Under the pieces are notes generated by a model that worked only from the letters and a program-made list of their open reading frames with translations, was not told where the DNA came from and searched no databases. Both the position numbers and the translations under genes were made by a program. A stretch of DNA of 64,000 bases from Sandaracinus amylolyticus (GTDB taxonomy: Bacteria; Myxococcota_A; Polyangia; Polyangiales; Sandaracinaceae): positions 7,564,001-7,628,000 of the forward strand of contig NZ_CP070225.1 of the NCBI RefSeq assembly GCF_021631985.1. Direction: 5' to 3'. The number at the start of each line of letters is the position of its first letter. The first letter of the stretch is position 1. Below are positions 14,491-61,265 of this stretch, piece after piece.

Positions 14491-17400
14491 GTGCATCGCA
14501 CGTCAGATTCCTCGCGGCGTTGGTCGTTCTCCTCTTCTTCCACCGCGCTGTCGCCGTGGCTGCTCCTGGCGCTCGCGCTGGGCGCCTGCGAGATGGACCG
14601 AGTCGGAATCGACCCCGACGCCGCACGCCCAGGATGCGACGGCGGCAGCTGCACCGACGCCCAGATGGCCGCGACGTGCAGCGACGGAGTGCGCAACGGC
14701 AGCGAGATCGCCGTCGACTGCGGCGGCACGTGCAGCGGGTGTCCGAACGGCACGACGTGCACCGCGGATCGCGACTGCGCGAGCGCGCTCTGCGTGTCCG
14801 GCACCTGCGCCGATCCGAGCTGCGACGACGCGCGCACCGACGGCGACGAGACCGACGTCGACTGCGGCGGACCGGAGTGCGATCCCTGCGACGACGGTCG
14901 CGCCTGCGAGGGCGCGAGCGACTGCACCAGCGGCGTGTGCGGAGACGACACCTGTCTCGCCGCGGGCTGCGCCGACACCGTGCAGAACGGCAGCGAGACC
15001 GACGTCGACTGCGGCGGCAGCTGCGCCGGCTGCGCGATCGGCGATGCCTGCACCGTCGCGACCGACTGCGCGAGCGGCGTCTGCGCGGACGACGTGTGCG
15101 TCGCGCCCGCGTGCGACGACGGAGTCACGAACGGCGACGAGACCGACGTCGACTGCGGCGGAAGCTGCTCCGGCTGCGCGGTCGGCGCGGCGTGCGACGA
15201 CGGCGACGACTGCGTGAGCCTCTCGTGCGGCGACGCGGGGCAGTGCCTCGCGACGGCGTGCGACGACGAGATCGAGAACGGCACCGAGACCGACGTCGAC
15301 TGCGGCGGTGCGTGCCCGCACTGCGAGGCCGGCGACGCCTGCGCCACCGCGGGCGACTGCGCGAGCGGCGTGTGCGATGCGTCGAACGTGTGCGCCGCGC
15401 CCGCGTGCGACGACGGAGTCGACAACGGCACCGAGACCGACGTCGACTGCGGCGGTGACTGCGCGTCGTGCGCCGACGGCGCGAGCTGCGGCGACCCGAG
15501 CGACTGCACCAGCGGCGTGTGCAGCGCGGGCACCTGCGTCGAGCCGACGTGCCTCGACGGAGTGCGCAACGACGGCGAGACCGACGTCGACTGCGGCGGG
15601 CCCTCGTGCGGCGACTGCGACGACGGCGAGGGCTGCGCGGGCGCGGGCGACTGCGCGAGCGGCGTGTGCAACGCGTCGAACGTGTGCGCCGTGCCCTCGT
15701 GCACCGACGGAGTCGACAACGGCACCGAGACCGACGTGGACTGCGGCGGCAGCTGCCCGGCGTGCGGTCAGGGCGAGGGCTGCACCGACGGCGACGACTG
15801 CGAGAGCGGCGTGTGCAGCGCGAACGCGTGCGCCGCGCCCTCGTGCAACGACGGAGTCGAGAACGGCAGCGAGACCGGCACCGACTGCGGCGGCGGAACC
15901 TGCAACGACTGCGGCACCGGCGGCGGATGCGCGGGCTCGAGCGACTGCACGAGCGGCGTGTGCACCGGCAACGTCTGCATCGCGCCCGCCTGCACCGACG
16001 GAGTGCGCAACGGCAGCGAGACCGGCACCGACTGCGGCGGCGGAACCTGCAACGACTGCGGCACCGGCGGTGGATGCGCGGGCCCCACCGACTGCGTGAG
16101 CGGCGTGTGCAACGCGATGAGCTGCGCCGCGCCGACCTGCACCGACGCCGTGCGCAACGGCGCCGAGACCGCCGCCGACTGCGGCGGTGGCACCTGCCCC
16201 GACTGTGCGCCCGGCCTCGCGTGCCTGAGCGCGAGCGACTGCACCAGCGGCGTCTGCACCGCCAACGTCTGCAGCGCGCCGAGCTGCACCGACGCGGTCC
16301 GCAACGGCACCGAGACCGGCACCGACTGCGGCGGCGGCACCTGCCCCGACTGCGGCACCGGCGGCGGATGCGCGAGCGCGAGCGACTGCACCAGCGGCGT
16401 CTGCACCGCCAACGTCTGCAGCGCGCCGAGCTGCACCGACGGAGTGCAGAACGGCACCGAGACCGACACCGACTGCGGCGGCGCGTCGTGCCCCGACTGC
16501 GCCGAGGGCGACTCGTGCACGGCGAACGGCGACTGCGCGAGCACGCACTGCGTGAGCAACGTGTGCGTCGTCGCGCCGACCGCGGCCTTCACCATCACGC
16601 CGCCCACCACCGCTGCGCCGCTCACCGTGAGCGCGACGAGCAGCGCGACGCCGGGCAGCGCCGCGATCACGCTGACTCGCTACGACTGGGGCGACGGCGG
16701 CGGCTTCGTCTCCGCGTCGACCCACACCTACGCGGCCTCGGGCACGTACACGGTCACGCAGCAGGTCCGCGACGCGAACAACCTCACCGCGACCGCGACG
16801 CAGACGATCACGGTCGACGACTTCCAGCCGGTGCGCTTCAGCACGACCGACATCTCGCCGGGCGTGAGCCTCTCGGTGGATCGGCTCGCGGTCGAGAGCT
16901 GGCCCACGCGCGGCGGCGTGCGCTCGAACCGCGCGGTGACGCCGGGCTCGGGCGTCTTCTACTTCGAGTCGGAGCGCCTGATCGAGCGCGGCTCGGTGTA
17001 CGGCGCGGGCGTGGCGACCGCGCTCGAGGATCTCGGCAACGTCGCGGGCGCGACCGCGCAGTCGCTCGGCGCGATCACCGGCGGCGGCATCGAGAGCAAC
17101 GGCAGCACCTGCACCGGCGGCACGCCGTGGTTCTCGCGCAGCGAGCGCTTCTTCGGCTTCGTCGTCGACTACCGCGGCACCTCGCCGACCGTGCACGTGC
17201 TGCTCGACGACGGCGCAGGCCTTCCGTACGTGAAGCAGTCGTGCGCGATGACGATCACCGCGCCGCTCTACATCTTCTACAGCGGTGAGCGCTACGAGCT
17301 CCGCTCGCAGATGCGCGTCAATCCCGGCAACGACACCACGAACCATCCGTTCCACTTCACCGCGAACGGCGTGCGCGACGCGCTCACCACGGCCGGCGCG

Positions 17401-18336
17401 AGCTCCGCGGCGAGCGCGCTGGTGATGGGCTGGGGCCAGACCCGCGCGCGCGACGTGAGCACCGCGCCCGTGCTCACGACGTCGCCCGATCTCACCGTCG
17501 CGGTGGGCACGCCGGTGATGCTCACGGCGAGCGCGACGGATGCCGAGGACGGCACGCTCACGTCGTCGATCACCTGGGAGGACGTCGCGACGCAGCGCCA
17601 CGCGCGCACGACCGGCACCGGCGCGTCGTTCTCGTTCACGCCGACCGCGGTGGGACGTCATCCGATCGTCGTGACCGCGACCGACTCGTACGAGGTCAGC
17701 ACGACCCGCACGATCATGGTCACGGTCACCGGCACGCTCCCCCAGTTCGATCCGGTCGTGCTCACGCCGGACTCGCTCACGGGCACGGGCATCACCGTCG
17801 CGCCGGGCGGGCTCGCGGCGCGCTTCGACGGCTTCGACAAGTACGGCGTCCGCGCGAACCAGCCGATCTACGGGCAGTTCTGGTACTTCGAGGCCACCCG
17901 CCAGGTGCCCGCGTCGAACATGGGCATGGGTCTCGTGATCCGCGATGGCGATCTCGATCCCTACGAGTTCGGTCGCGTGCCCTACTCGATGTCGGTGAAC
18001 ACGCTCGGCGGCACGTGGCGCAACCTGGTGTGGCAGAGCGCGTGGGACAGCTCGGAGAGCACCTACGGTCTCGCGGTCGACTACCGCGGTCCGAACCCGA
18101 TCGTCTACGTGATCATCAACGGCGTCGTGCAGGAGACGCTGGTGCTCGACGACGTGTGGGTCCCGCTCTACCCGATGCTCTACGCGAACCCGACCGGCAG
18201 CGTCGCGCCCGCGCTCGACTGGACGATCAACTTCGGGACCTCGGCGTTCGTGCACGATCCGGTCGCGATCCTCACCGCGGCAGGCGTCGACGCGAGCGGG
18301 CTCGAGGTCGGTTGGGGCGACGCGAACACGCCGTGA
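14491..18336 (+). CDS. CDG-repeat / PKD / SPRY-like multidomain lipoprotein
   Basis: 1281 residues from GTG. A lipoprotein signal (LLLALALGAC) is followed by 13 Cys-rich repeats of the pattern CxDGVxNGxETDVDCGG-x-C-x2-C with a following GxxC-x4-DCxSGVC half (about residues 60-690). Next is a PKD-like Ig domain (about 692-775, containing YDWGDGGGFVSASTHTY). The C-terminal 500 residues carry two related beta-sandwich segments with FYFESER/WYFEATR and VDYRGTSP/VDYRGPNP blocks, separated by an Ig-like cadherin-type segment; they resemble B30.2/SPRY domains. Such architecture suggests extracellular binding of polysaccharide or protein. It stands alone, with a terminator at 18354. Confidence 0.85.
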   Translation: MHRTSDSSRRWSFSSSSTALSPWLLLALALGACEMDRVGIDPDAARPGCDGGSCTDAQMAATCSDGVRNGSEIAVDCGGTCSGCPNGTTCTADRDCASALCVSGTCADPSCDDARTDGDETDVDCGGPECDPCDDGRACEGASDCTSGVCGDDTCLAAGCADTVQNGSETDVDCGGSCAGCAIGDACTVATDCASGVCADDVCVAPACDDGVTNGDETDVDCGGSCSGCAVGAACDDGDDCVSLSCGDAGQCLATACDDEIENGTETDVDCGGACPHCEAGDACATAGDCASGVCDASNVCAAPACDDGVDNGTETDVDCGGDCASCADGASCGDPSDCTSGVCSAGTCVEPTCLDGVRNDGETDVDCGGPSCGDCDDGEGCAGAGDCASGVCNASNVCAVPSCTDGVDNGTETDVDCGGSCPACGQGEGCTDGDDCESGVCSANACAAPSCNDGVENGSETGTDCGGGTCNDCGTGGGCAGSSDCTSGVCTGNVCIAPACTDGVRNGSETGTDCGGGTCNDCGTGGGCAGPTDCVSGVCNAMSCAAPTCTDAVRNGAETAADCGGGTCPDCAPGLACLSASDCTSGVCTANVCSAPSCTDAVRNGTETGTDCGGGTCPDCGTGGGCASASDCTSGVCTANVCSAPSCTDGVQNGTETDTDCGGASCPDCAEGDSCTANGDCASTHCVSNVCVVAPTAAFTITPPTTAAPLTVSATSSATPGSAAITLTRYDWGDGGGFVSASTHTYAASGTYTVTQQVRDANNLTATATQTITVDDFQPVRFSTTDISPGVSLSVDRLAVESWPTRGGVRSNRAVTPGSGVFYFESERLIERGSVYGAGVATALEDLGNVAGATAQSLGAITGGGIESNGSTCTGGTPWFSRSERFFGFVVDYRGTSPTVHVLLDDGAGLPYVKQSCAMTITAPLYIFYSGERYELRSQMRVNPGNDTTNHPFHFTANGVRDALTTAGASSAASALVMGWGQTRARDVSTAPVLTTSPDLTVAVGTPVMLTASATDAEDGTLTSSITWEDVATQRHARTTGTGASFSFTPTAVGRHPIVVTATDSYEVSTTRTIMVTVTGTLPQFDPVVLTPDSLTGTGITVAPGGLAARFDGFDKYGVRANQPIYGQFWYFEATRQVPASNMGMGLVIRDGDLDPYEFGRVPYSMSVNTLGGTWRNLVWQSAWDSSESTYGLAVDYRGPNPIVYVIINGVVQETLVLDDVWVPLYPMLYANPTGSVAPALDWTINFGTSAFVHDPVAILTAAGVDASGLEVGWGDANTP

Positions 18337-21134: not shown

Positions 21135-22013
21135 TCACCGCGGCTCGCCGAGCTCGTCGGCAGCGCGGAACAGGTTGATCGGCACGCTCAGGTAGCGCCG
21201 CCCCGCGGCGTCGGCGGGCGGCATCCGGCCGCCGTCGACGTTGATCTGCACGCTCTGGAACAGCAGCTTCGGCGCGGGCAGCGTCGCATCCCGCGCGTTG
21301 CGCGCCCGGACGAATTCCTCGCGCGTCGTGCGCGCGGAGAGCTGCGGGTTGTGGTCCTTCTCGGCGCCGATCGTCGTCTCCCAGCGCACCTCGCGGCCGG
21401 GAAGGTAGTCGTGCCCGGGGAACACCCGCGTGGCGTCGGGCAGCGCATAGAGCTTCTGGACCGAGTCGAACATCCGCTCGGCGCTCCCGCTCGGGAAGTC
21501 GCAGCGACCGGTGCCGTAGTCGTCCATGAAGAGCAGATCGCCGGTGAACAACGCGTCGTCGATCCGGTAGGTGACGCACGCGGGCGTGTGGCCCGGCGTC
21601 GCGATCACCTGCACGCGCAGGCTGCCCGCCTCGATCACGTCGCCCTCGGCGACGAGCCGATCGAACTGGCGCCCGTCGGTCGCGAGGTGATCGAGCGCGA
21701 GGACGCTCTTGAACGTGCGCTGCACCTCGGTGATCGCCGCGCCGATCGCCACGCGCGCGTCGAAGCGCCGGCGCAGCAGCGCGGAGCCCGAGAGGTGGTC
21801 GGCGTGGGCGTGCGTCTCGAGCGACCACCACAGCCGCAGCCCGTGCTCGCGCACGAAGTCGCCGAGCCGATCGATCGACTCGGTGGACGTGGACGAGCCG
21901 ATCGGCTCGTAGTCGAGCACCGGATCGATCGCGACCGCATCGCGCGTGGCCGGGTCGTACACGACGTACGAGAGCGTGAACGTGCGCGGATCGAAGAACG
22001 CCTGGACCTGCAT
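21135..22013 (-). CDS. Metallo-beta-lactamase-fold persulfide dioxygenase (Blh/PDO type)
   Basis: 292 residues. Iron-ligand motifs of the ETHE1/Blh group are present: THAHADHLSGS, TPGHTPACVTY, FMDDYGTGRCDFPSG and FPGHDYLPG. The enzyme oxidises glutathione persulfide or polysulfide to sulfite in the cytoplasm. The C-terminal 80 residues (GAEKDHNPQL, DGGRMPPADAAGRRYLSVPIN) are those of the Blh-like subgroup. The ATG has a GAGG site 6 nt upstream. A half-site array (22147-22196) and a sigma54-like promoter (22055-22069) precede it. It is one of two distinct persulfide dioxygenases in this cluster. Confidence 0.9.
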   Translation of the reverse strand: MQVQAFFDPRTFTLSYVVYDPATRDAVAIDPVLDYEPIGSSTSTESIDRLGDFVREHGLRLWWSLETHAHADHLSGSALLRRRFDARVAIGAAITEVQRTFKSVLALDHLATDGRQFDRLVAEGDVIEAGSLRVQVIATPGHTPACVTYRIDDALFTGDLLFMDDYGTGRCDFPSGSAERMFDSVQKLYALPDATRVFPGHDYLPGREVRWETTIGAEKDHNPQLSARTTREEFVRARNARDATLPAPKLLFQSVQINVDGGRMPPADAAGRRYLSVPINLFRAADELGEPR

Positions 22014-22054
22014 GACGAGACCTCGCGTCGAGTGGGTTGTGCTGGTCGCCCGGA

Positions 22055-22069
22055 GCAGCGGCCGTGCCG
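22055..22069 (-). promoter_or_regulatory. Sigma54-like -24/-12 element before the persulfide dioxygenase
   Basis: On the minus strand this reads CGGCACGGCCGCTGC, matching TGGCACG-N4-TTGC at all but two positions, with the GG and GC dinucleotides at the correct spacing. The predicted start site is about 30 nt before the ATG at 22013. Confidence 0.5.
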
Positions 22070-22146
22070 CCGCGAGGTCGTGCCCCGAGGGCGTCGCCCT
22101 CTACGCACCGTCGCCCTGCCGATCGGTGTGCGCGCTCACGCGCGAC

Positions 22147-22196
22147 GTTTCATCGCGCGTTTCATCGCGACCACGCGTCGCTGAAACGTCGTTTCA
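22147..22196. promoter_or_regulatory. Four-half-site operator array P1
   Basis: GTTTCA at 22147 and 22159, then the perfect 15-bp palindrome TGAAACGTCGTTTCA at 22182-22196. Half-site starts are spaced 12, 23 and 9 bp apart. It lies 134-183 bp upstream of the dioxygenase start. Confidence 0.7.
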
Positions 22197-22279
22197 CGAC
22201 GATGCAACACGACGGAACGCGAGCGCGCGAGCCACCTCTCGGCAGCTCGCGCGCTTCCACGGAGGACGACCGCTCGCGG

Positions 22280-22723
22280 TCAGGCGTCGGGCGTCGCGTG
22301 CGACCGCTCCACCCATCCCACGACCCACATCGATCCGACCATCGCGAGCACGAACACCACCGCCGAGATCGATCCGCTCGCCAGCGCGGTCACGCCCGGC
22401 CCGGGGCAGTACCCGCCGAGCCCCCAGCCCACGCCGAAGAGCGCGGCCCCGGCGAGCAGCCTGCGATCGAGATCGCGACGCGTCGGCAGCGCGAACGTCT
22501 CGGCGAGGAGCGGTGCGCGCCGGCGGCGCACCCACCGGTACACCGAGGCGTTCACCGCGATCGCGCCGACCATCACGAACATCAGCGCAGGCCGCCAGTC
22601 GCCGGTGACGTCGAGGAACCCGATCACGTTCGCGGGCTCGGTCATCCCGCCGACGACCAGACCGATCGCGAAGAGCGCGCCCGCGGCGAACGCGGCGAGG
22701 CCCTGCTTGGTGCGCGCGTCCAT
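22280..22723 (-). CDS. YeeE/YedE-like sulfur transporter, second half (DUF6691)
   Basis: 147 residues with four hydrophobic segments and the conserved motif GGYCPGPGVTAL near residue 105, containing the cysteine thought to relay sulfur species in YeeE/YedE-type thiosulfate channels. Its start overlaps the upstream half-transporter by one base (TGATG), so the pair is translationally coupled. Split two-gene versions (PmpA/PmpB-like) are common beside sulfide-oxidation genes. Probable role: moving thiosulfate or another sulfane-sulfur compound across the inner membrane. Confidence 0.85.
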   Translation of the reverse strand: MDARTKQGLAAFAAGALFAIGLVVGGMTEPANVIGFLDVTGDWRPALMFVMVGAIAVNASVYRWVRRRRAPLLAETFALPTRRDLDRRLLAGAALFGVGWGLGGYCPGPGVTALASGSISAVVFVLAMVGSMWVVGWVERSHATPDA

Positions 22724-23148
22724 CAGAGACCTCCGAGCAGGCGCATCGCGAGCACGGTGAGCCCGCCGGTGAGCATGAACGTGAGCGTCGCGACGATGGA
22801 GCGCGGCGCGAGACGGCTGATGCCGCACACGCCGTGGCCGCTGGTGCACCCGTTCCCGATCCGCGTGCCCACGCCGACGAGCACGCCGGCGAGCGCCACC
22901 AGCGGCAGCGCGGGCGCGCCGCTCGCGTCGAAGCGGTCGGGCATCAGCACGAGCCCGACGAGCCCTCCCGCGACGAGCCCGGCGACGAAGAGCGCGCGCC
23001 ACGCGACGTCGCCCCGCACCGGCGCGACCAGCCCGCCGAGGATGCCGCTGATGCCGGCGATCTTGCCGTTCAGCGCGAGCAGCAACGCCGACGCGGTGCC
23101 GATCATCACGCCTCCCGCGAGCGCCCATCCGAACGAGACCAGATCCAT
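22723..23148 (-). CDS. YeeE/YedE-like sulfur transporter, first half
   Basis: 141 residues starting [17 protein letters not shown], with four hydrophobic segments. The family signature [15 protein letters not shown] near residue 100 holds the two cysteines typical of YeeE/YedE transporters. The ATG at 23148 is preferred over an arginine-rich upstream extension. A near-consensus sigma54-like promoter lies at 23179-23193, and the shared operator array P2 follows at 23236-23284. It is divergent from the TauE/SafE gene and works with the next gene as a two-part channel. Confidence 0.86.
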
Positions 23149-23178
23149 CCGAGACGTCCTCCTCTCGAAGCCTGCATC

Positions 23179-23193
23179 GCAGCCCGCGTGCCA
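23179..23193 (-). promoter_or_regulatory. Near-consensus sigma54-like promoter before the YeeE/YedE pair
   Basis: On the minus strand this reads TGGCACGCGGGCTGC, one mismatch from TGGCACG-N4-TTGC. The predicted start site is near 23167, about 20 nt before the ATG at 23148. Confidence 0.6.
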
Positions 23194-23235
23194 GCGACCA
23201 TGCCCGCGATCGCGGCGGAGGGAACGCACACGGAC

Positions 23236-23284
23236 GTTTCGCGAGCGTTTCACCGGCCGCGAACCGGTGAAACATCACGTTTCG
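23236..23284. promoter_or_regulatory. Four-half-site operator array P2 (shared, divergent)
   Basis: GTTTCG 23236, GTTTCA 23247, TGAAAC 23268 and GTTTCG 23279; start spacings are 11, 21 and 11 bp. It lies midway between the divergent YeeE/YedE and TauE/SafE genes, 45-100 bp from both sigma54-like elements. Confidence 0.7.
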
Positions 23285-23335
23285 ATCGGTTCCGCGATCC
23301 CGCGATTCTTCACGGGCTCGACCCCGCGCCGGGCA

Positions 23336-23350
23336 CGGCACGGTCGTCGC
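23336..23350 (+). promoter_or_regulatory. Sigma54-like element before the TauE/SafE gene
   Basis: Reads CGGCACGGTCGTCGC, two mismatches from TGGCACG-N4-TTGC with correct GG-GC spacing. The predicted start would leave only about 7 nt of leader before the ATG at 23369, which weakens the call. Confidence 0.4.
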
Positions 23351-23368
23351 TATCGAGCCCTTCACGTC

Positions 23369-24259
23369 ATGTCGCTCGTCGTCGGTCTCGCGCTCGCGAT
23401 CCTCGTCGGCGTCTCGCTCGGTCTGCTGGGCGGAGGCGGCTCGATCCTCATGGTCCCGGTCCTCGTGTACGTGCTGGGACGCGGCACCCACGAGGCGATC
23501 GCGACCTCGCTCGTCGTGGTCGGCACGACCAGCCTCGCGGCGCTGATCCCGCACGCGCGCGCCGGTCGGGTGCGCTGGAGGACGGGCCTGCTCTTCGGCG
23601 CGACCAGCATGCTCGGCGCGTACGCCGCGGGGCGCGTCGCGCACGTCGTGCCGGGCGTGGTGCTGCTGCTCGCGTTCGGCGCGATGATGCTGGTGACCGC
23701 GGGCGCGATGATGCGCGCACGCCTCGCGACCGCGGCCACGACGGAGCACCCGCTGCGGATCGTGGTGCAGGGCGCGATCGTCGGCGCGATCACCGGGCTC
23801 GTGGGCGCGGGCGGCGGCTTCGTCGTGGTGCCGGCGCTGGTGCTGCTGGGCGCGCTCTCGATGCGCGAGGCGATCGGCACCTCGCTGCTCGTGATCGCGA
23901 TGAACTCGGCGGCGGCGCTCGCCGGACACCTGGGCTCGACCTCGATCGACGTCGGGCTCGCCGCGATGATCACCGCCGCCGCGGTGATCGGCAGCGCCGC
24001 CGGCGCGGTGGTCGCGGGCCGCGTGCGTCAGGACCTGCTGCGGCGCGCCTTCGCGTGGCTCGTCGTGACGATGGCGGTGTTCCTGCTCTCGCAGGAGATC
24101 CCTCGCGCCGCGGGCGTCGAGGTGGTGCTCGGTCGCGACTGGCCGTGCGTGCTCGGGCTCACTGCGATCCCGATGGCGCTCGCGGCGATCGACCTCGCGC
24201 GGATGCGCCGCGCGGCCGAGGGCGTCGCGGAGGAGACGCTGCGGCGCTCCATCGCGTGA
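23369..24259 (+). CDS. TauE/SafE-family sulfite/sulfonate exporter
   Basis: 296 residues, about eight transmembrane helices in two related halves. Each half begins with the family glycine-rich motif: LGLLGGGGSILMVPVLVYVLG near residue 18 and GLVGAGGGFVVVPALVLLG near 145. Members export sulfite, sulfoacetate or related anions. Next to two persulfide dioxygenases, removal of the sulfite they produce is the likely role. Its TGA stop is the first three bases of operator array P3, so coding and control sequence touch directly. Confidence 0.9.
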   Translation: MSLVVGLALAILVGVSLGLLGGGGSILMVPVLVYVLGRGTHEAIATSLVVVGTTSLAALIPHARAGRVRWRTGLLFGATSMLGAYAAGRVAHVVPGVVLLLAFGAMMLVTAGAMMRARLATAATTEHPLRIVVQGAIVGAITGLVGAGGGFVVVPALVLLGALSMREAIGTSLLVIAMNSAAALAGHLGSTSIDVGLAAMITAAAVIGSAAGAVVAGRVRQDLLRRAFAWLVVTMAVFLLSQEIPRAAGVEVVLGRDWPCVLGLTAIPMALAAIDLARMRRAAEGVAEETLRRSIA

Positions 24260-24305
24260 AACACACGTTTCACCGCTGACCCGAGCTGTTTCATGCACGT
24301 GAAAC
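24257..24305. promoter_or_regulatory. Four-half-site operator array P3
   Basis: TGAAAC 24257, GTTTCA 24267, GTTTCA 24288 and TGAAAC 24300; start spacings are 10, 21 and 12 bp. It occupies most of the 69-bp gap before the DUF1641 gene. No sigma54-like element is visible between it and that gene. Confidence 0.68.
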
Positions 24306-24328
24306 ATCGAGCCGAGAGGAAGACGTCG

Positions 24329-25072
24329 ATGGAGCATCCTGGAGATCCTCGGACGAGCCCGGCCACGCGGCAGCCGGCGGGCGACACCCGCGCGATCCTC
24401 GACGCGCTCTCGCGCATCGAGCAGCGGCTCGATCGCGTCGAGGCGATCGCCTCCGCGGCGCGCGCGGACGCAGCGAGCGCGCTCGCCGGGGCGACCGACA
24501 CCTTCGACCACGCGATGCGCGCCGCCGCCGCGCGCGGCATCGACGTCGACGAGCGGGCGCGCATCGCGCTGCGCCTGCTCGAGCGCATCACCCAGCCCGA
24601 CACGATGCGGGCGCTCGAGCGCGTGCTCGAGCTCGCGGAGCAGTCGCCCGCGGCGATCGCGATGGCTGCCGACACGCTCGACAGCCTCGCGGCGCGCGTT
24701 CAGCAGGCGGGCATCGACCTCGACGCGCGCGCCGACAACGTGCTGCGCGCGGCGGAGCGGCTGAGCTCGGACCGCGCGGTCGCGCTGATCGAGGCATCGC
24801 TCGAGCGCGCCGACGCGATCCGGAGCGTCATCGAGTCCGGTGCCCTCGACCCCGCGGCGGTCGCGGTGGTCTCGAAGGCCGGGCGCGCGCTCGCCGAGGC
24901 GGCGTCCGAGCCCGGAGCGTCGCTCGGCGCGCTCGGGCTGCTGCGCGCGATGAGCGACGCCGAGATCCGCGCCGCGAACGGCTTCCTCGTGCGCTTCGCA
25001 CGACACCTCGGGCGCGCGCTCGCGGACGACGCGCCCGCGCTGCCCACCCACGCGAACGGAGCACGACGATGA
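24329..25072 (+). CDS. DUF1641 protein, partner of sulfide:quinone oxidoreductase
   Basis: 247 residues, soluble and almost entirely helical, Ala/Arg/Leu-rich. Repeated amphipathic segments ([50 protein letters not shown]) and the end [26 protein letters not shown] match DUF1641 proteins. These recur immediately before sulfide:quinone-oxidoreductase-like flavoproteins. The ATG is preceded by GAGAGGA. The last codons overlap the next start by 4 bp (ATGA), strongly suggesting co-translation with the flavoprotein. Its biochemical role is not established; a membrane-docking or assembly factor for SQR is inferred. Confidence 0.85.
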
Positions 25073-26262
25073 ACGAGCCCAGCACGCACGACATCGTGAT
25101 CATCGGCGGCGGCACCGCCGGCCTGAGCGTCGCGGCCCGCCTCTGCGCGCGGCCCGACGCGCCCGCGGTGACGATCGTCGAGCCCTCGGAGCACCACTAC
25201 TACCAGCCGCTCTGGACGCTCGTGGGCGGCGGGATCTTCGCGAAGGAGAGCACCCAGCGGCGCGAGGCGGACTACATCCCGCGCGGGGCCACCTGGATCC
25301 GCGACGCAGCGACGGAGATCGATCCCGAGCGAAGGATCGTGAGGACGCGCGACGGGCGGACGCTCTCGTACCAGCAGCTCGTCGTCGCGCCGGGCATGCA
25401 GCTCGACTGGCACGCGATCGAGGGCCTCGAGGGCCACCTCGGGAAGGACGGCATCTGCTCGAACTACTCGTACGCGACCGTCGACAGCACGTGGAAGGCG
25501 CTGAGCACGCTCGAGGGCGGCAACGCCGTGTTCACGTTCCCGTCCACGCCGATCAAGTGCGCGGGCGCGCCCCAGAAGATCATGTACCTCGCCGACGATC
25601 ACCTGCGGCGACGCGGCGTCCGCTCGCGGACGCGGGTGATCTACGCCTCGGCGACCGCGGGGATCTTCGGCGTGAAGAAGTACGCGGCCGCGCTCGCGAA
25701 GGTCGTGGAGCGCAAGGAGATCGAGACGCTCTTCCGCCACGACCTCGTCGCGGTGCGACCGAGCTCGAAGGAGGCGGTCTTCCGCCATCTCGACGACGGC
25801 AGCGAGCGGATCGTCTCCTACTCGCTGCTCCACGTGGTGCCGCCGCAGAGCGCGCCCGACTTCGTGAAGAAGGGCCCGCTCGCGAGCAGCGCGGGCTGGG
25901 TCGACGTGCACAAGCACACGCTCCAGCACGTGAAGTGGCCGGACGTCTGGGCGCTCGGCGACGCGAGCAGCTTGCCGACCTCGCGCACCGGCGCCGCGAT
26001 CCGCAAGCAGGCGCCGGTGCTGGTCGAGAACCTGATGGCGTACCGCCGAGGCGAGCCGCTGCCGGCGAGCTACGACGGCTACGCGTCGTGCCCGCTGGTG
26101 ACCGGCTACGGAAAGCTGATCCTCGCGGAGTTCGACTACGACGGGGTGCCGCAGGAGAGCTTCCCGTTCGACCAGTCGCAGGAGCGCTACAGCCTCTGGG
26201 CGCTCAAGGCCTACGCGCTGCCCGAGATGTACTGGAACGGAATGTTGCGCGGGCGCGCGTAG
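25069..26262 (+). CDS. sqr: Type II sulfide:quinone oxidoreductase (SQR)
   Basis: 397 residues, FAD-dependent. The N-terminal dinucleotide fold is [17 protein letters not shown]. The two redox cysteines of the mitochondrial SQOR-like type II group sit in [14 protein letters not shown] (about residue 164) and [20 protein letters not shown] (about 344). The C-terminal [11 protein letters not shown] and MYWNGMLRG are close to the eukaryotic enzyme and form the membrane-docking region. The reaction is sulfide plus quinone to bound persulfide plus quinol, with sulfur passed to glutathione or another thiol. It provides the substrate for the persulfide dioxygenases encoded on either side. Confidence 0.95.
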
Positions 26263-26263
26263 C

Positions 26264-26310
26264 TGAAACGTCGTTTCACCGACGTTGCAACACCCTGAAA
26301 CATCGTCTCG
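26264..26310. promoter_or_regulatory. Operator array P4 (three good half-sites plus one degenerate)
   Basis: The palindrome TGAAACGTCGTTTCA (26264-26278) is identical to the one at 22182. It is followed by TGAAAC at 26296 and a degenerate GTCTCG at 26305; start spacings are 9, 23 and 9 bp. It begins 2 bp after the SQR stop and precedes the rhodanese-fusion gene. Confidence 0.65.
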
Positions 26311-26354
26311 CGGCCGGTTCTGGCATCCTCGATCCGGCGGGAGAGGGAGCGCTC

Positions 26355-27461
26355 ATGCTGTTCCGACAGCTCTTCGATCTGGAGTCCTCGACCTATACGT
26401 ATCTCCTCGCCGACGAGGAGACGCGCGAGGCGGTGATCATCGATCCCGTGCTCGAGCAGGTGGAGCGCGACGTCGGCCTGGTGCACGACCTCGGGCTCGC
26501 GCTGCGCTACGCGATCGACACCCACGTCCACGCCGATCACGTCACGGCGCTCGGCACGCTGCGCGACCGCCTCGGATGCCAGACCGTGCTCTCGGAGCGC
26601 GCGGGTGTCGGGTGCGCCGACGTGCTGGTGAAGGACGGCGATCGCATCCGCTTCGGCGCGCACGAGCTCGAGGTGCGCGAGACGCCGGGCCACACGAGCG
26701 GTTGCCTCAGCTACGTGACCGGCGATCGCCGCATGGCGTTCACCGGCGACGCGCTGCTGATCCGCGGCTCGGGCCGCACCGACTTCCAGCAGGGCGACGC
26801 GCCCACGCTCTATCGCTCGGTGCACGAGAAGCTCTTCACGCTGCCCGACTCGACGCTCGTGTTCCCCGGCCACGATTACAAGGGACGCACCGTCACCTCG
26901 GTCGGCGAAGAGAAGCGCCTCAACCCGCGGCTCGGCGGAGGGCGCAGCGAGGCCGAGTTCGTCGAGATCATGGCGAAGCTCCAGCTCGCGTATCCGAAGA
27001 AGATCGACGTCGCGCTCCCCGCGAACCTCGCGTGTGGGGTGCCGCGCGGCGTGCCCGCGACGCCCGAGCCGATCGAGGCCGCGCGCTGGGCGCCGATCGA
27101 GACGAGCGCGGGTGGGATCCCCGAGCTCGCGCCCGAGTGGATCGCGACGCACCCCGGCGCGGGGCGCCTCGTCGACGTGCGCGAGCCGAGCGAGTTCGTG
27201 GGCGAGCTCGGGCACGTGCCGGGCAGCGAGCTGGTGCCGCTCGCGACGGTCGAGCGCGCCGCGCTGGACTGGGATCGCAGCGCGCCGATCGTCGCGATCT
27301 GTCGATCGGGCGGGCGCTCGGGAAAGGCCGCGCTGCAGCTGCGCGCCATGGGCTTCGAGCGCGTCGCGTCGATGCGCGGCGGCATGACCGCCTGGAACGC
27401 GCAGCGACTGCCGATCGATCGCGGCGGCAGCGCGCGCGAGGACGCGACGCAGGCGAGCTGA
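26355..27461 (+). CDS. Persulfide dioxygenase - rhodanese fusion (ETHE1-type)
   Basis: 368 residues. Residues 1-230 are an ETHE1-like dioxygenase: [20 protein letters not shown], iron ligands in [36 protein letters not shown] and FPGHDYKG. Residues about 255-350 are a rhodanese domain with active-site cysteine in [13 protein letters not shown]. The fusion couples persulfide oxidation to sulfite with transfer of sulfane sulfur to sulfite or thiol, giving thiosulfate. The ATG has a GAGAGGGAG site upstream. Operator P4 precedes it. Confidence 0.93.
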
Positions 27462-56443: not shown

Positions 56444-56479
56444 GCGCCGATCCTGAGCAGCGTGTGTGCCGTCGGGATT

Positions 56480-56497
56480 TCCCGCGAAAACGCGGGA
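56480..56497. promoter_or_regulatory. Hairpin TCCCGCG-AAAA-CGCGGGA
   Basis: A perfect 7-bp stem with an AAAA loop in the 124-bp divergent region upstream of the giant kinase/sigma54-type gene. Confidence 0.45.
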
Positions 56498-56503
56498 TCC
56501 GAC

Positions 56504-56559
56504 TGTTCCATGTTGTTCCACTCGTGCCTTCGTCCGTGCCACTGGAACATGTTGGTACA
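56504..56559. promoter_or_regulatory. Symmetric four-half-site operator before the giant regulator
   Basis: TGTTCCA at 56504 and 56514, then TGGAACA at 56543 and TGGTACA at 56553. The two left sites are direct repeats at 10 bp, and so are the two right ones, in inverted orientation about a centre near 56531. It ends 8 nt before the GTG at 56568. Confidence 0.6.
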
Positions 56560-56567
56560 CTCGCGTC

Positions 56568-59500
56568 GTGGTCTCGCCGGGGGTCGTGATCGCGTCTCGG
56601 TTCCGCGTCGTCGCGCCGCTCGGCGAGGGCGGACAGGGGCGCGTGGTGCGCGCGCTCGATCTCGCGCGCGGTCGCGAGGTCGCGCTCAAGATGGTGGCGG
56701 CGCACGCGCTCGACGCGGTGGTCGCGGAGCTCGAGGTCGCGACGCGGCTCGTGCACCCATCGCTCGCGAGGATCGCCGATGTCGGTCGCGTGCGGGTGGG
56801 CGATCGCGAGATCGCGTGGATCGCGAGCGAGCTGATCGAGGGCGTGTCGCTCGCGCGCTTCGCGAGCGGCGCGCGGTGGGCCGCGATGGAGCGCGCGATC
56901 GTGTCGGCGCTCGAGGGGCTCGCGGCGCTGCACGGCGCGGGGCTGCGGCACGGCGACGTGCGCGCCGAGAACGTGCTGGTCGCCGCGGATGGGCGCGCGG
57001 TGCTGGTCGATCTCGGGCTCGCGGGCGCGCTCGGGAGCGCGCTGCGGGGCGCGACGCCGGGGCTCGTCGCGCCCGAGCTGGTGCGGGGCGCGCGTGACGT
57101 CGATGGTCGCGGCGATCTCTACGCGCTCGGGATCGCGATGCGCGCGCTGCTCCCGACGATCGGTGAGCCGGTGCCGTACGCCGCGCGCGCGGTGATCGAC
57201 GCGCTCGCCCATGACGATCCCGCGCGCCGGCCCAGCGCGGCGGAGGCCCTCGCGACGCTGGGGGTGCGGGCGCGCGCGGTGGAAGCGATCCCCGCCGCGC
57301 TCGTCGGTCGCGACGGGGCGCTCGAGGCGCTCGATGCGCTGGTGGCGCGGGTGAGCGAGGGCGCGGTCGGCGCGCGGGTGGTGCGCGTCGTGGGCCCGAG
57401 CGGAAGCGGCCGCACCGCGCTCCTGTCGCGGTTCCGATGGCGCTGCGGGCTGCGCGCGGAGATCGTCGAGCCGATCGCGGGCGCGCTCGGAGATGCGATC
57501 GCGCGGGCCGCGGGGCGCGAGGGAACGGTGCGCGGAGTCGCCGACGCGCTCGCCGCGATCGATCGCGCGAGCGGGCGTGGTCGAGCGTGTGTGATCGTGA
57601 TCGACGACGCGGACCGGCTCGCGACCGATGCGCGGGCGTTGCTCGACGCGATCACGCGCGCGATCGATCCCCGAGGGCCGATCGCGGTCGTGATCGCGAC
57701 GAGCGAGGGCGAGGGACTTCGGCTCGCGCCGCTCGAGACGCGCGACGTCACGACGTGGCTGGGCGCGCGGATCGAGCCCGACGCGATCGAGGCGCTCACG
57801 CATGCGAGCGAGGGCCTGCCCGGGCGCATCGTCGCGATCCTCGACGCGCTGCGCGGAGCGCACGTGGATCGCGCGGCGATCGCGGAGACGGTGCGCAAGC
57901 TCGCGCGGCGCGGTGCGCCGATGGACGCGAGCACGACCGAGCGCGCGAGCGCGATGTCGATCGCGGCGGCGGGAGGCACGCTCGACGACGGCGAGGCCGA
58001 TGCGCTCGGGCTCGACGCGGCGCGCATCGCGGCGCTGGTCTCGCGCGGGTGGGCGCGTCGAGAGCGGGCGTCGTTGCGGCTGGTCGTGGCGGTCGAGGAC
58101 GTGCTCGCGTCGGCGCGTCCCGCCGAGCGTCGCGCGGCGTTCCTCGCGCTCGCCGCGACCGCGGCGCGTGATCCCTCGCCGCAGCGCGCGATCGTGGAGC
58201 GGGCGCGACGGCTCGCCGAGGCGGGCGAGACCGACGAGGCGAGCGCGCTCTTGCTCGGCCATCCCGATGCGCCGTGGGATCGCGAGCGCGCGGCAATCGT
58301 CGCGCGGGCGAGCGGCCGCGCCGACGTGCTGCTCGCGCTCGCAGGGATCGAAGAGCGGACCGGGCGCGCCGATCTCGCGCTCGCGACGATCGCGCGCGCG
58401 CTGCGCACGAGGCCTGATCACTCGATGCGCGCCGAGGCGCGGGAAGCCGCGGCGTCGGCGTACCTGCGACGCGGCGATGGCGCGCGCGCACTGCGCGTGC
58501 TGGCGCGCACCACCGGTGTTCGTCACGCCGATCTCGTCGCGCGCGCCTCGATCCAGCTCGGACGCTACGACGAGGCCCGGCGGGCCGCCGAGGACGCGCT
58601 GCGCGGCGACGCGATCGACGACGCGATGCGCGCCGATCTGCTCGAGGACGTCGGCGTCGCCGCGGGCTACCTCGGGGATCGCAGCGCGTCCGATCGGGCG
58701 CTCGCCGAGGCGGAGCGGCTGCGGCGTGCGAGCGGGCGCGACGACCCGCGGGCCCGGGTGCGCATCGCGAGCTACCGCGCGATCCACGCGTACCGGGCGG
58801 GCGAGCTCGAGGCCGCGGCGGCGCGTTATCGGGAGGCGCTCGCGATCGCCGAGGAGCACGCGCTCGACGATCAGCTCGCGAGCGCGGCGCTCAACCTCGG
58901 CACCACCGAGCACCTGCGGGGTGAGCTCGGTGCGGCGCGTGACGCGTACGAGCGCGCGCTGCGGCTCGCTCACGCGCTCGGCCGGGTGCGCACCCACGCG
59001 GTCGCGCTCTTCGATCGCGCGCAGCTCCTCGCCGATGCGGGCGCGAGCGCGCGCGCCGAGATCGAGGCGGTGGCCGCGCTCGATGCCGCGCGCGCCGGTG
59101 GTCTCGACGCGATGATCGCGTGTTGTCTCGAGCTGCGCGGCGCGCTCGCGCTGGGGCGCGGCGATCCCGATGGCGCGACCGGCCTCGCGAACGAAGCGAT
59201 CGCGATCGCCGATCGCATCGGCGCGACCCGCGAGCGCGCGGAGCTCGCGATCCTGGAGGGCCAGATCGCGCTCGCGCGCGGCGCGCTCGATGGCGCCACG
59301 TCGCACGTCGATCGCGCGCGCGACGACGCGGGCGCCGCGGATGCGCGCGACCTGATCGCGAAGTCGTGCGCCACCCGGGCCCGCATCGAGCTCGCGCACG
59401 AGCGCCCCGAGCGCGCGCTCGCCGCCGCGGAAGAAGGGCTCGCCGCGCTCGGCCCGGGCGGTGCGCGCGACGTCGAGGCCGAGCTCGCCGCGCTCGCCGC

Positions 59501-61265
59501 ACAGGCCGCCGATCACGCCGGTGCGCCCGCGACGGCACGGCCGTTCCGCGATCGTGCGCGTGCGATCTGGGAGCGCGCCGCGCTCACGCTGCCGGCGTCC
59601 GAGCGCGCCGCGTTCTGGGCCGTCCCCAAGCGACGCGATCTCGGGGGAGGCGAGCGCGCTGCGCCCGGGGCGAGCGCGCGCGAGCGATGGCTCGAGCGCT
59701 TGCTCGCGGTGAACGCGCGGCTCACGTCGAGCCTCCGCGCGACCGACGTGCTCGAGGTCGCGATGGACGCCGCGATCGAGCTCACCGGCGGCGAGCGCGG
59801 CTTCGTGCTGCTCGCGGATCGCGAGGGCGGCGAGCTCCGGGTCGCGGCGGCGCGCCACGTCGATCGACGGCGCGTCGATCGTGCGTGGCTCGAGTGGAGC
59901 CGCTCGATCGCGGAGCGCGTGATCGCGAGCGGCGAGCCGATCCTCAGCGCCGAGGCGACCGAGGACGCGCGCTTCGCGGAGCAGCGCTCGGTGCGCGCGC
60001 TCGGGCTGCGCTCGGTGCTCGCGGTGCCGATCCGCGGGCGCGGCGGCACGCTCGGCGCGCTCTACCTCGACCATCGGTTCGCGCGCGGCAGCTTCGCCGA
60101 GGGCGGGGTCGGCATCCTCGTCGCGTTCGCCGATCAGGTCGCGATCGCGCTCGAGAACGCGCGGCTCCACGAAGAGCTCGCGACGCGCACCCGCGAGCTC
60201 GAGCGCGAGCGTCGTCGCATCGCGAGCTCGCTCGACGAGAAGGGCCGCGAGATCGAGCGGCTCGAGGACACCATCCGCGCGATGCGGGGCGCCGGTCCCG
60301 ACGCACGCTACGAGGAGCTCGGCCTGATCGGGCGCGGCGAGGCGATCCGCGCGCTCCTCGCGCGCGTCGATCGCGTCGCGCCCGCGGGACTGCCGGTGTT
60401 GATCACCGGCGAGAGCGGGACCGGCAAGGAGCTCGTCGCGCGGGCGCTGCATCGCTTCGGGCCGACTCCCGAGGGACCGATGATCTCGATCAACTGTGCG
60501 GCGCTGCCCGCGACGCTGCTGGAGAGCGAGCTCTTCGGGCACGCGCGCGGCGCGTTCACCGGGGCCGATCGCGATCGCGTCGGGCTCTTCGTGCGAGCGA
60601 GCGGCGGCACGCTCTTCCTCGACGAGATCGGCGAGCTCCCGCTCGCGCTCCAGGCGAAGCTGCTGCGCGCGCTGCAGGAGCGCGAGGTGCGACCACTCGG
60701 TGGATCGCGCAGCGTCGCGTTCTCGGCGCGGGTGATCGCCGCGACCCATCGCGACCTGCGCGCCGACGTCGCGGGGCAGCGCTTCCGCGAGGATCTCTTC
60801 TACCGGCTCGCGGTGGTCGAGGTCGCGGTGCCTCCGCTGCGCGAGCGCCTCGAAGATCTCCCGCTGCTCGCGGCGCACGTGATCGCGCGACTGGCGCGCG
60901 AGACGAAGCGCGAGCCCGCACCGCGCCTCACGCCCGCCGCGCTGCGCACGCTCGCGCGTCACGCCTGGCCAGGCAACGTGCGCGAGCTCGAGAACGTGCT
61001 CGCGAGCGCGATGGTGCAGAGCGAAGACGCGCGCATCGACGCGCGTGATCTCGCGCTCGACGGCGGACGCACGCCACCGGCGAGACGGAGCCTCTCGCGG
61101 CGCGACGCCGACGAGCGCGAAGCCGCGCGGGTGGCCTCGGCGCTCGAAGCGAGCGGCTTCAACGTGTCGGAGGTGTGCCGCACCCTCGGCATCCCGCGCA
61201 CCACGCTCTATCGGAAGATGAAGCGCTGGGGGATCGAGCCGGGGTCGGCGCGCGACCCCCGCTGA
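56568..61265 (+). CDS. Giant kinase-like / STAND ATPase / TPR / GAF / sigma54-AAA+ / Fis-HTH regulator
   Basis: 1565 residues from GTG. Domains in order: a kinase-like domain 5-235 with LGEGGQGRVV, ATP lysine in VALKMV, a catalytic loop HGDVRAENVLV in place of HRD, and DLG in place of DFG; a STAND-type ATPase from about 245 (LVGRDGALEAL, Walker A GPSGSGRT near 275); a TPR-like helical array about 560-950; a GAF domain about 1060-1200 (GERGFVLLADREGGELRVAA); a coiled coil; a sigma54-interacting AAA+ domain about 1250-1490 with GESGTGKE, GAFTGA, FLDEIGELP and RFREDLFYRL; and a Fis-type HTH at the C-terminus (GFNVSEVCRTLGIPRTTLYRKM). It should activate sigma54 promoters in response to a signal. 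No ribosome site is visible. Confidence 0.93.
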   Translation: MVSPGVVIASRFRVVAPLGEGGQGRVVRALDLARGREVALKMVAAHALDAVVAELEVATRLVHPSLARIADVGRVRVGDREIAWIASELIEGVSLARFASGARWAAMERAIVSALEGLAALHGAGLRHGDVRAENVLVAADGRAVLVDLGLAGALGSALRGATPGLVAPELVRGARDVDGRGDLYALGIAMRALLPTIGEPVPYAARAVIDALAHDDPARRPSAAEALATLGVRARAVEAIPAALVGRDGALEALDALVARVSEGAVGARVVRVVGPSGSGRTALLSRFRWRCGLRAEIVEPIAGALGDAIARAAGREGTVRGVADALAAIDRASGRGRACVIVIDDADRLATDARALLDAITRAIDPRGPIAVVIATSEGEGLRLAPLETRDVTTWLGARIEPDAIEALTHASEGLPGRIVAILDALRGAHVDRAAIAETVRKLARRGAPMDASTTERASAMSIAAAGGTLDDGEADALGLDAARIAALVSRGWARRERASLRLVVAVEDVLASARPAERRAAFLALAATAARDPSPQRAIVERARRLAEAGETDEASALLLGHPDAPWDRERAAIVARASGRADVLLALAGIEERTGRADLALATIARALRTRPDHSMRAEAREAAASAYLRRGDGARALRVLARTTGVRHADLVARASIQLGRYDEARRAAEDALRGDAIDDAMRADLLEDVGVAAGYLGDRSASDRALAEAERLRRASGRDDPRARVRIASYRAIHAYRAGELEAAAARYREALAIAEEHALDDQLASAALNLGTTEHLRGELGAARDAYERALRLAHALGRVRTHAVALFDRAQLLADAGASARAEIEAVAALDAARAGGLDAMIACCLELRGALALGRGDPDGATGLANEAIAIADRIGATRERAELAILEGQIALARGALDGATSHVDRARDDAGAADARDLIAKSCATRARIELAHERPERALAAAEEGLAALGPGGARDVEAELAALAAQAADHAGAPATARPFRDRARAIWERAALTLPASERAAFWAVPKRRDLGGGERAAPGASARERWLERLLAVNARLTSSLRATDVLEVAMDAAIELTGGERGFVLLADREGGELRVAAARHVDRRRVDRAWLEWSRSIAERVIASGEPILSAEATEDARFAEQRSVRALGLRSVLAVPIRGRGGTLGALYLDHRFARGSFAEGGVGILVAFADQVAIALENARLHEELATRTRELERERRRIASSLDEKGREIERLEDTIRAMRGAGPDARYEELGLIGRGEAIRALLARVDRVAPAGLPVLITGESGTGKELVARALHRFGPTPEGPMISINCAALPATLLESELFGHARGAFTGADRDRVGLFVRASGGTLFLDEIGELPLALQAKLLRALQEREVRPLGGSRSVAFSARVIAATHRDLRADVAGQRFREDLFYRLAVVEVAVPPLRERLEDLPLLAAHVIARLARETKREPAPRLTPAALRTLARHAWPGNVRELENVLASAMVQSEDARIDARDLALDGGRTPPARRSLSRRDADEREAARVASALEASGFNVSEVCRTLGIPRTTLYRKMKRWGIEPGSARDPR

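Follow-up and report, generated by a model that had tools for sequence, protein, structure and literature searches.

The question raised by this locus was whether three 15-mers that resemble sigma54 promoters, and the arrays of the hexamer GTTTCA or its reverse complement TGAAAC (half-sites) that accompany them, act together on the sulfur genes beside them, and through which regulator. The reading favored here, with a probability of about 0.85 and on the basis of sequence, is that the 15-mers are sigma54 promoters and that the arrays are enhancers, which would be bound by a FisR-family AAA+ enhancer-binding protein (EBP). Most likely, the sites and arrays form a real sulfur-responsive switch, with the EBP gene elsewhere in the genome and with a sensor unlike that of the FisR used for comparison. 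The window referred to below is the whole 64-kb stretch of DNA that was analyzed, and its features are collected in Table 1.

Table 1. Features of the sulfur locus and the candidate regulator gene. Positions are those of the window unless a genome coordinate is given; mismatches of 15-mers in the window were scored against TGGCACGN4TTGC.
Feature	Position	Strand	Remarks
Persulfide dioxygenase (PDO), metallo-beta-lactamase fold	21135..22013	-	
Sigma54-like promoter of PDO gene	22055..22069	-	CGGCACGGCCGCTGC; 2 mismatches
Array A, upstream of PDO	22147..22208		Four GTTTCA/TGAAAC and variant TGCAAC at 22203
YeeE/YedE-type membrane protein, second half (DUF6691)	22280..22723	-	
YeeE/YedE-type membrane protein, first half (Sulf_transp)	22723..23148	-	
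Sigma54-like promoter of YeeE/YedE pair	23179..23193	-	TGGCACGCGGGCTGC; 1 mismatch
Array B, common to divergent YeeE and TauE promoters	23236..23284		Exact half-sites at 23247 and 23268; GTTTCG flanks at 23236 and 23279
Sigma54-like promoter of TauE/SafE	23336..23350	+	CGGCACGGTCGTCGC; 2 mismatches
TauE/SafE exporter	23369..24259	+	
Array C	24257..24305		First half-site provides TauE stop codon
DUF1641 protein	24329..25072	+	
Sulfide:quinone oxidoreductase (SQR)-like flavoprotein	25069..26262	+	NCBIfam type III SQR model below cut-off
Array D, before PDO-rhodanese	26264..26301		Three exact half-sites and TGCAAC at 26286
Imperfect sigma54-like site before PDO-rhodanese	26321..26335	+	TGGCATCCTCGATCC; GC of -12 missing
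PDO-rhodanese fusion	26355..27461	+	
Enhancer-binding protein (EBP), 450 aa	G000:C1:6094547-6095896 (L119:8547-9896)		1.49 Mb from window

GTTTCA/TGAAAC occurs 13 times in the window, every copy inside one of the four arrays (exact half-site spans 22147-22196, 23247-23273, 24257-24305 and 26264-26301), and 60 shuffles of the window gave a mean of 3.5 copies and a maximum of 10. The genes from TauE to PDO-rhodanese lie on the same strand with short gaps and may therefore be one operon. No good sigma54 site was found between array C and the DUF1641 gene, where the end of the array is 23 bp from the ATG, or between array D and the PDO-rhodanese gene, where the only candidate was TGGCATCCTCGATCC, without GC at -12. 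A simple consensus scan of 21900-26500 returned no sigma70-like promoter and no terminator-like site. Elsewhere in the window, a long ORF at 14491-18336 encodes a cysteine-rich repeat protein.

All three 15-mers before PDO, YeeE/YedE and TauE carry GG and GC at a distance of 10 bp within flanks close to the consensus, so that the -24/-12 spacing reported for these positions in the first-pass annotation was borne out, as was their placement on the right strand between the arrays and the genes. The constant distance between array and promoter that it also proposed did not hold, since the gap from array to 15-mer is 77 bp for PDO, 53 bp for YeeE and 62 bp for TauE, and ranges from 6 to 168 bp (median 54, n=31) from array to sigma54-like site in the wider set described below. 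The TauE 15-mer has TCGC where the consensus has TTGC and would give a leader of ~7 nt; the predicted start for TauE, here and in several relatives, is a few bases from the ATG. The window (GC content 72%) contains 12 sigma54-like sites of this quality, compared with a mean of 14.7 in dinucleotide shuffles (n=60), so the 15-mer motif is by itself unremarkable and weak as proof. Of these 12, three are correctly oriented within the three promoter zones, where 0.04 would be expected (P ~1e-5, with the zones picked after the fact).

The inverted pair TGAAACN{2,7}GTTTCA was found at 8 places in the 10.96-Mb genome (0 in the reversed control), and these form three clusters: the window, a second PDO-rhodanese locus at 6.975 Mb (L120) and the EBP gene. 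The opposite arrangement, GTTTCAN{2,7}TGAAAC, brings in further places only at the 6.975-Mb locus and within the window, apart from five copies of GTTTCACGTGAAAC at 8.225 Mb; direct-repeat pairs of half-sites number 3 forward and 4 reverse. The second PDO-rhodanese locus has a consensus site (TGGCACCCGCGTTGC) preceded by an array at a distance of 568 bp; in the sister species G001 this distance is 578 bp, and both genomes have a further array at the gene's 3' end. Arrays lie before, inside and after the EBP gene, and one of them covers its start codon. The operator-like pair inside the coding sequence, TGAAAC-N4-GTTTCA at L119:8965-8980 (G000:C1:6094965-6094980), is conserved across seven genomes, with variable residues encoded between the half-sites; the lysine codon AAA is a minority codon in all seven EBP genes, and TTT, for phenylalanine, is common in three of these genes and has one or two occurrences in each of the other four.

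The EBP has a sigma54-activation domain of the AAA+ type with the Walker A and GAFTGA motifs of the FisR family (PF00158, E=1.3e-66) and, likewise as in that family, a Fis-type C-terminal helix-turn-helix (HTH; PF02954, E=5.3e-12), and rpoN is present in the genome. Its N-terminus is PAS-like (PF08448, below cut-off here and above cut-off in the relative at L057). GAFTGA is found in 26 of 28 EBP relatives, the protein of the window genome among them, and Cys62 (in LCG) is kept in all 27 relatives that have the region, with a cysteine in MCG at this position in the partial EBP of L042. The only other cysteine column common to at least three rows is that of the AAA+ motif INC (28/28). A structure prediction for the L057 EBP from a two-row alignment had a mean pLDDT of 39 and was set aside. 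Downstream of the EBP gene (L119:10550-11467), and also in L181, genes judged by eye to be Ohr/OsmC-like and MarR-type were seen, which might connect the locus with stress from peroxide or sulfane sulfur.

The EBP, scored as an N-terminal match at E <= 1e-20, was found in 24 of 56 related genomes, the window genome included. A YeeE, TauE, PDO, PDO-rhodanese or SQR gene lies in the same stretch as the EBP in 18 of the 24 fetched loci, and an array lies in 16 of the 24 (loci with arrays only inside the EBP gene are counted). EBP, arrays and sulfur genes stand together in L039, L042 (Kofleriaceae; EBP cut by the end of the stretch) and L057 (Myxococcales), in the last of which the EBP adjoins the order YeeE pair-array-TauE-SQR-array-PDO. 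EBP and target genes without an array were seen in L193 and L194, with no half-site upstream, and in L197 and L203, with single half-sites. Across the loci, a recognition helix of SRV or SRT in the EBP correlates with the presence of arrays, a pattern that is no more than suggestive.

Upstream regions of the fetched YeeE, TauE, PDO and PDO-rhodanese genes (108 regions, those of the window genome included) were compared by EBP content. At least two half-sites were found upstream of 31 of 66 target genes in EBP-carrying genomes and of 4 of 42 in the others, a comparison in which G011 was classed as EBP-free despite a 332-aa EBP fragment on the same contig as its PDO-rhodanese gene; three of the four array regions in the EBP-free class come from this genome. 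Counted by genus, arrays occur in 10 of 17 EBP-carrying genera and 2 of 19 others, the relatives not being independent samples. Of the 35 array regions, 32 had a sigma54-like site (at least 8/10, GG and GC intact, within 150 bp of the start) on the right strand, preceded by a half-site in 31 of them, and one had such a site on the wrong strand. In 200 mononucleotide shuffles of the array regions, a mean of 3.2 and a maximum of 9 regions had such a site. Array D of this genome is among the 32, but its match lies on the far side of the array. Regions without a half-site (n=63; 10 of the 108 regions, with exactly one, were omitted from this comparison) had a site on the right strand in 17 and on the wrong strand in 6 cases, so that the sigma54 signal does not need arrays. 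At a score of 9 the counts were 22 of 35 array regions and 10 of 63 regions without a half-site on the right strand, and 0 and 3, respectively, on the wrong strand.

The sigma54 score and the helical classes given below were set after the first loci had been viewed, and the only held-out check consisted of ten new EBP-carrying genomes from the phylum, some on short contigs. Six of these loci had target genes, five of them with arrays, and four of the ten had the EBP without a target gene or array; a sigma54-like site was present in 4 of 6 array regions. This result is in line with the first set, and weaker on the promoter. One genome, G049 (L209-L214), has many arrays, several of them without a nearby sigma54-like site, and 32 direct-repeat pairs genome-wide, and possibly has an expanded regulon.

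The collection of 78 distinct arrays holds 223 half-sites with the core YGTTTCA (Y in 96%). Among the distances between neighbors, limited to <=34 bp by the definition of an array, 141 of 145 are 9-13, 20-25 or 30-34 bp. The preferred spacing depends on orientation, being 10-12 bp for direct repeats, 12-13 bp for GTTTCA-TGAAAC and 9-10 bp for TGAAAC-GTTTCA. A period of 10.5-11 bp describes the phasing of half-sites, including that of the 41 distances >18 bp, with inexact p-values because the arrays were taken from related genomes. Helical phasing of this kind points to a protein on one face of the DNA rather than to RNA hairpins, and orientation-free, helically phased arrays pose the mechanistic question of how such activators assemble.

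Kinship with FisR was examined in Acinetobacter. In the part of the published account that was available, A. baumannii FisR is a sigma54 activator required for sulfide induction of pdo1-sqr-tauE-hsd (PMC7315123). A record of A. baumannii (L327) contains a fisR-pdo region with the gene order of the published FisR operon, on which order the match is based. Between its fisR and pdo genes lie four GTTTCA/TGAAAC (-184 to -147 relative to the PDO start), a number reached by 0 of 20,000 shuffles, and TGGCATCTTATTTGC at -53; the same four half-sites are present in a second strain (L332). An A. junii plasmid (L330) carries a diverged homologue, with two half-sites 12 bp apart (reached by 70 of 20,000 shuffles) and TGGCATTGTATTTGC. 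This plasmid stretch is a sulfide-tolerance cluster on a mobilizable plasmid, and cytochrome bd genes were seen in it after pdo-sqr-tauE, beside the fisR homologue (L330:81-2512). The common DNA site together with a sigma54-like promoter before pdo, sqr or tauE was thus found in the window, in its relatives and in A. baumannii.

In a tree of 64 activation/HTH regions, two FisR sequences grouped with 37 EBP relatives (SH-aLRT 97) and 25 other EBPs fell outside, in a quick search without bootstrap in which the FisR rows sat on a long branch and were flagged for letter make-up. The best match of FisR in the genome was the 6.09-Mb EBP, at 276 bits, followed by one at 252. Comparison of the EBP N-terminal domain with residues 1-135 of A. 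baumannii FisR gave nothing significant by blastp, a probability of 0.1% by hhalign and nothing in the domain by hmmsearch. Because core and DNA site match and the N-terminus is unalignable, the EBP is placed in the FisR family by its core and DNA site, not by its sensor. A plasmid search with the EBP N-terminus returned no match, and no EBP was present in the stretches fetched for plasmid PDO matches of Cupriavidus oxalaticus and Caballeronia (L322, L324, L326). Further EBPs on plasmids (L328, L329, L333, L334) adjoin unrelated genes and were used as outgroup rows.

Four other explanations were weighed. The arrays could be operators of a repressor or other regulator, for example of the ArsR/BigR type, with the sigma54-like sites arising by chance in GC-rich DNA. 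Array C, array D and the one over the EBP start codon do occupy positions suited to blocking by a repressor, one array has an ArsR-family gene next to it (L120:7557-7946), and sites of this quality are equally common in window shuffles. Against this stand the strand bias of the sites in array regions (32 right against 1 wrong of 35), the recurrence of the EBP as the regulator gene seen near arrays (in a survey not systematic for other regulators), and the presence of these half-sites in A. baumannii, in the operon whose gene order is that of the published FisR operon; this explanation is considered unlikely. It is less likely again that the genes form a sigma54 regulon under a different EBP, even though the genome has 87 PF00158 matches and one of them is ~35 kb away in the window. 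That protein (56466-61265; 1599 aa, with a sigma54-activation domain, an HTH and an N-terminus that is presumably kinase-like) groups with other EBPs outside the FisR group, and no exact half-site lies near its gene.

The remaining two explanations are given very little weight, and about equally so. One holds that a ParB/parS segregation system binds the arrays, the half-site being the same hexamer: five GTTTCACGTGAAAC palindromes, which we take to be parS-like, lie within 1.2 kb at G000:C1:8225225-8226450, and ParB may read this hexamer. These are copies of one fixed 14-bp palindrome in a cluster of their own, whereas the arrays vary in spacing and orientation and accompany sulfur genes and the EBP gene. 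If the palindromes are parS, one hexamer would serve in both the ParB site and the FisR half-site of this genome. According to the other, the inverted repeats work at the RNA level, forming hairpins or terminators where genes end, and several arrays are indeed at stop codons, some between convergent genes. Against it stand the many neighboring half-sites that are direct repeats, their helical phasing at ~10.5-11 bp even for distances >18 bp, and the lack of a terminator-like site in 21900-26500.

The reading of the half-sites as enhancers for a FisR-type AAA+ sigma54 activator, which the first-pass annotation had put forward, thus gained support at the level of sequence from the arrays borne by the EBP gene itself, from the co-occurrence of EBP and arrays across genomes, from the right-strand sigma54-like sites in array regions and from the half-sites of the A. 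baumannii operon; it is weaker in that the distance varies and that not every array is upstream of a sigma54-like site. The sites, their spacing and strand, this co-occurrence, the kinship with FisR, the AAA+ motifs and rpoN can all be read directly in the DNA; DNA binding by the EBP, sulfur as its signal, Cys62 as its sensor and the extent of the operon are inferred. Sulfide or persulfide stress would be sensed by the PAS-like N-terminal domain through the invariant Cys62, releasing the AAA+ ring. This signal is modeled, by analogy, on the FisR mode described in the available part of a published account, in which persulfide chemistry on cysteines leads to higher ATPase activity (PMC12170894). 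The EBP would bind the arrays through its Fis-type helix-turn-helix, and half-sites one helical turn apart would gather it on one face of the DNA, from which it would loop to the sigma54 holoenzyme, here 53-77 bp away. The PDO, YeeE/YedE and TauE promoters would thereby be opened, with DUF1641, SQR and PDO-rhodanese probably included downstream.

A sigma54-like site is missing where expected for arrays C and D, the arrays at gene 3' ends, one inside the EBP gene and several of G049. Arrays C and D, those at gene 3' ends, the array over the EBP start codon and some of G049 do not fit simple upstream enhancers. Because sigma54 activators can act from a distance, these arrays may be further enhancers; they may also be feedback sites. 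A broader proposal, to which slightly less than even odds are given, is that of a FisR code common to several phyla. Instead of one fixed dyad, the FisR clade would recognize separate copies of YGTTTCA, each an independent half-site of either orientation, at intervals of one, two or three helical turns. The site would have been kept from Acinetobacter to Myxococcota while the sensor was exchanged: in Myxococcota it is PAS-like and has one invariant cysteine, the N-terminus of A. baumannii FisR is unrelated, and the A. junii plasmid copy, as annotated, apparently lacks one. Under this proposal, arrays within operons, at stop codons or in the regulator gene itself would be functional as further enhancers or feedback roadblocks.

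Literature searches, with most subscription journals outside them, found nothing on myxobacterial sigma54 together with sulfide oxidation and nothing on persulfide dioxygenase together with an enhancer binding protein and a PAS domain; literature co-mentioning Myxococcota and persulfide dioxygenase does exist. The DNA site of FisR may be described in the original FisR paper. As far as the available part of the FisR literature goes, the family gains a testable DNA site, an activator group without a known role is tied to sulfide detoxification, and one invariant cysteine is proposed as sensor. The half-site and the sigma54 site together allow a regulon search in any EBP-bearing genome.

Among known systems, control of yeeE-yedE-pdo by BigR/SqrR involves the same target gene families, but those regulators are ArsR-family repressors that work without sigma54, and no BigR/SqrR-type protein was found among the seven window cluster proteins scanned. 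FisR of Cupriavidus pinatubonensis JMP134, known here through parts of papers that cite it, resembles the proposed system in depending on sigma54 to switch on genes of sulfide oxidation; the cysteines that regulate it are absent from A. baumannii FisR, as the available part of one study states (PMC7315123). The same part reports that the YeeE/YedE pair in A. baumannii is controlled by the repressor BigR (PMC7315123), whereas the pair carries arrays here. The EBP further differs from A. baumannii FisR in its PAS-like sensor with an invariant Cys, in the unalignable N-terminus, in the distance of its gene from the targets and in the organization of half-sites, the GTTTCA-TGAAAC start distance being 7 bp in A. 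baumannii. The two are alike in their AAA+/HTH regions, which are 50% identical and fall in the same clade, in having GTTTCA/TGAAAC followed by a consensus sigma54 site ahead of the PDO gene, and in overlapping target genes (PDO, SQR and TauE).
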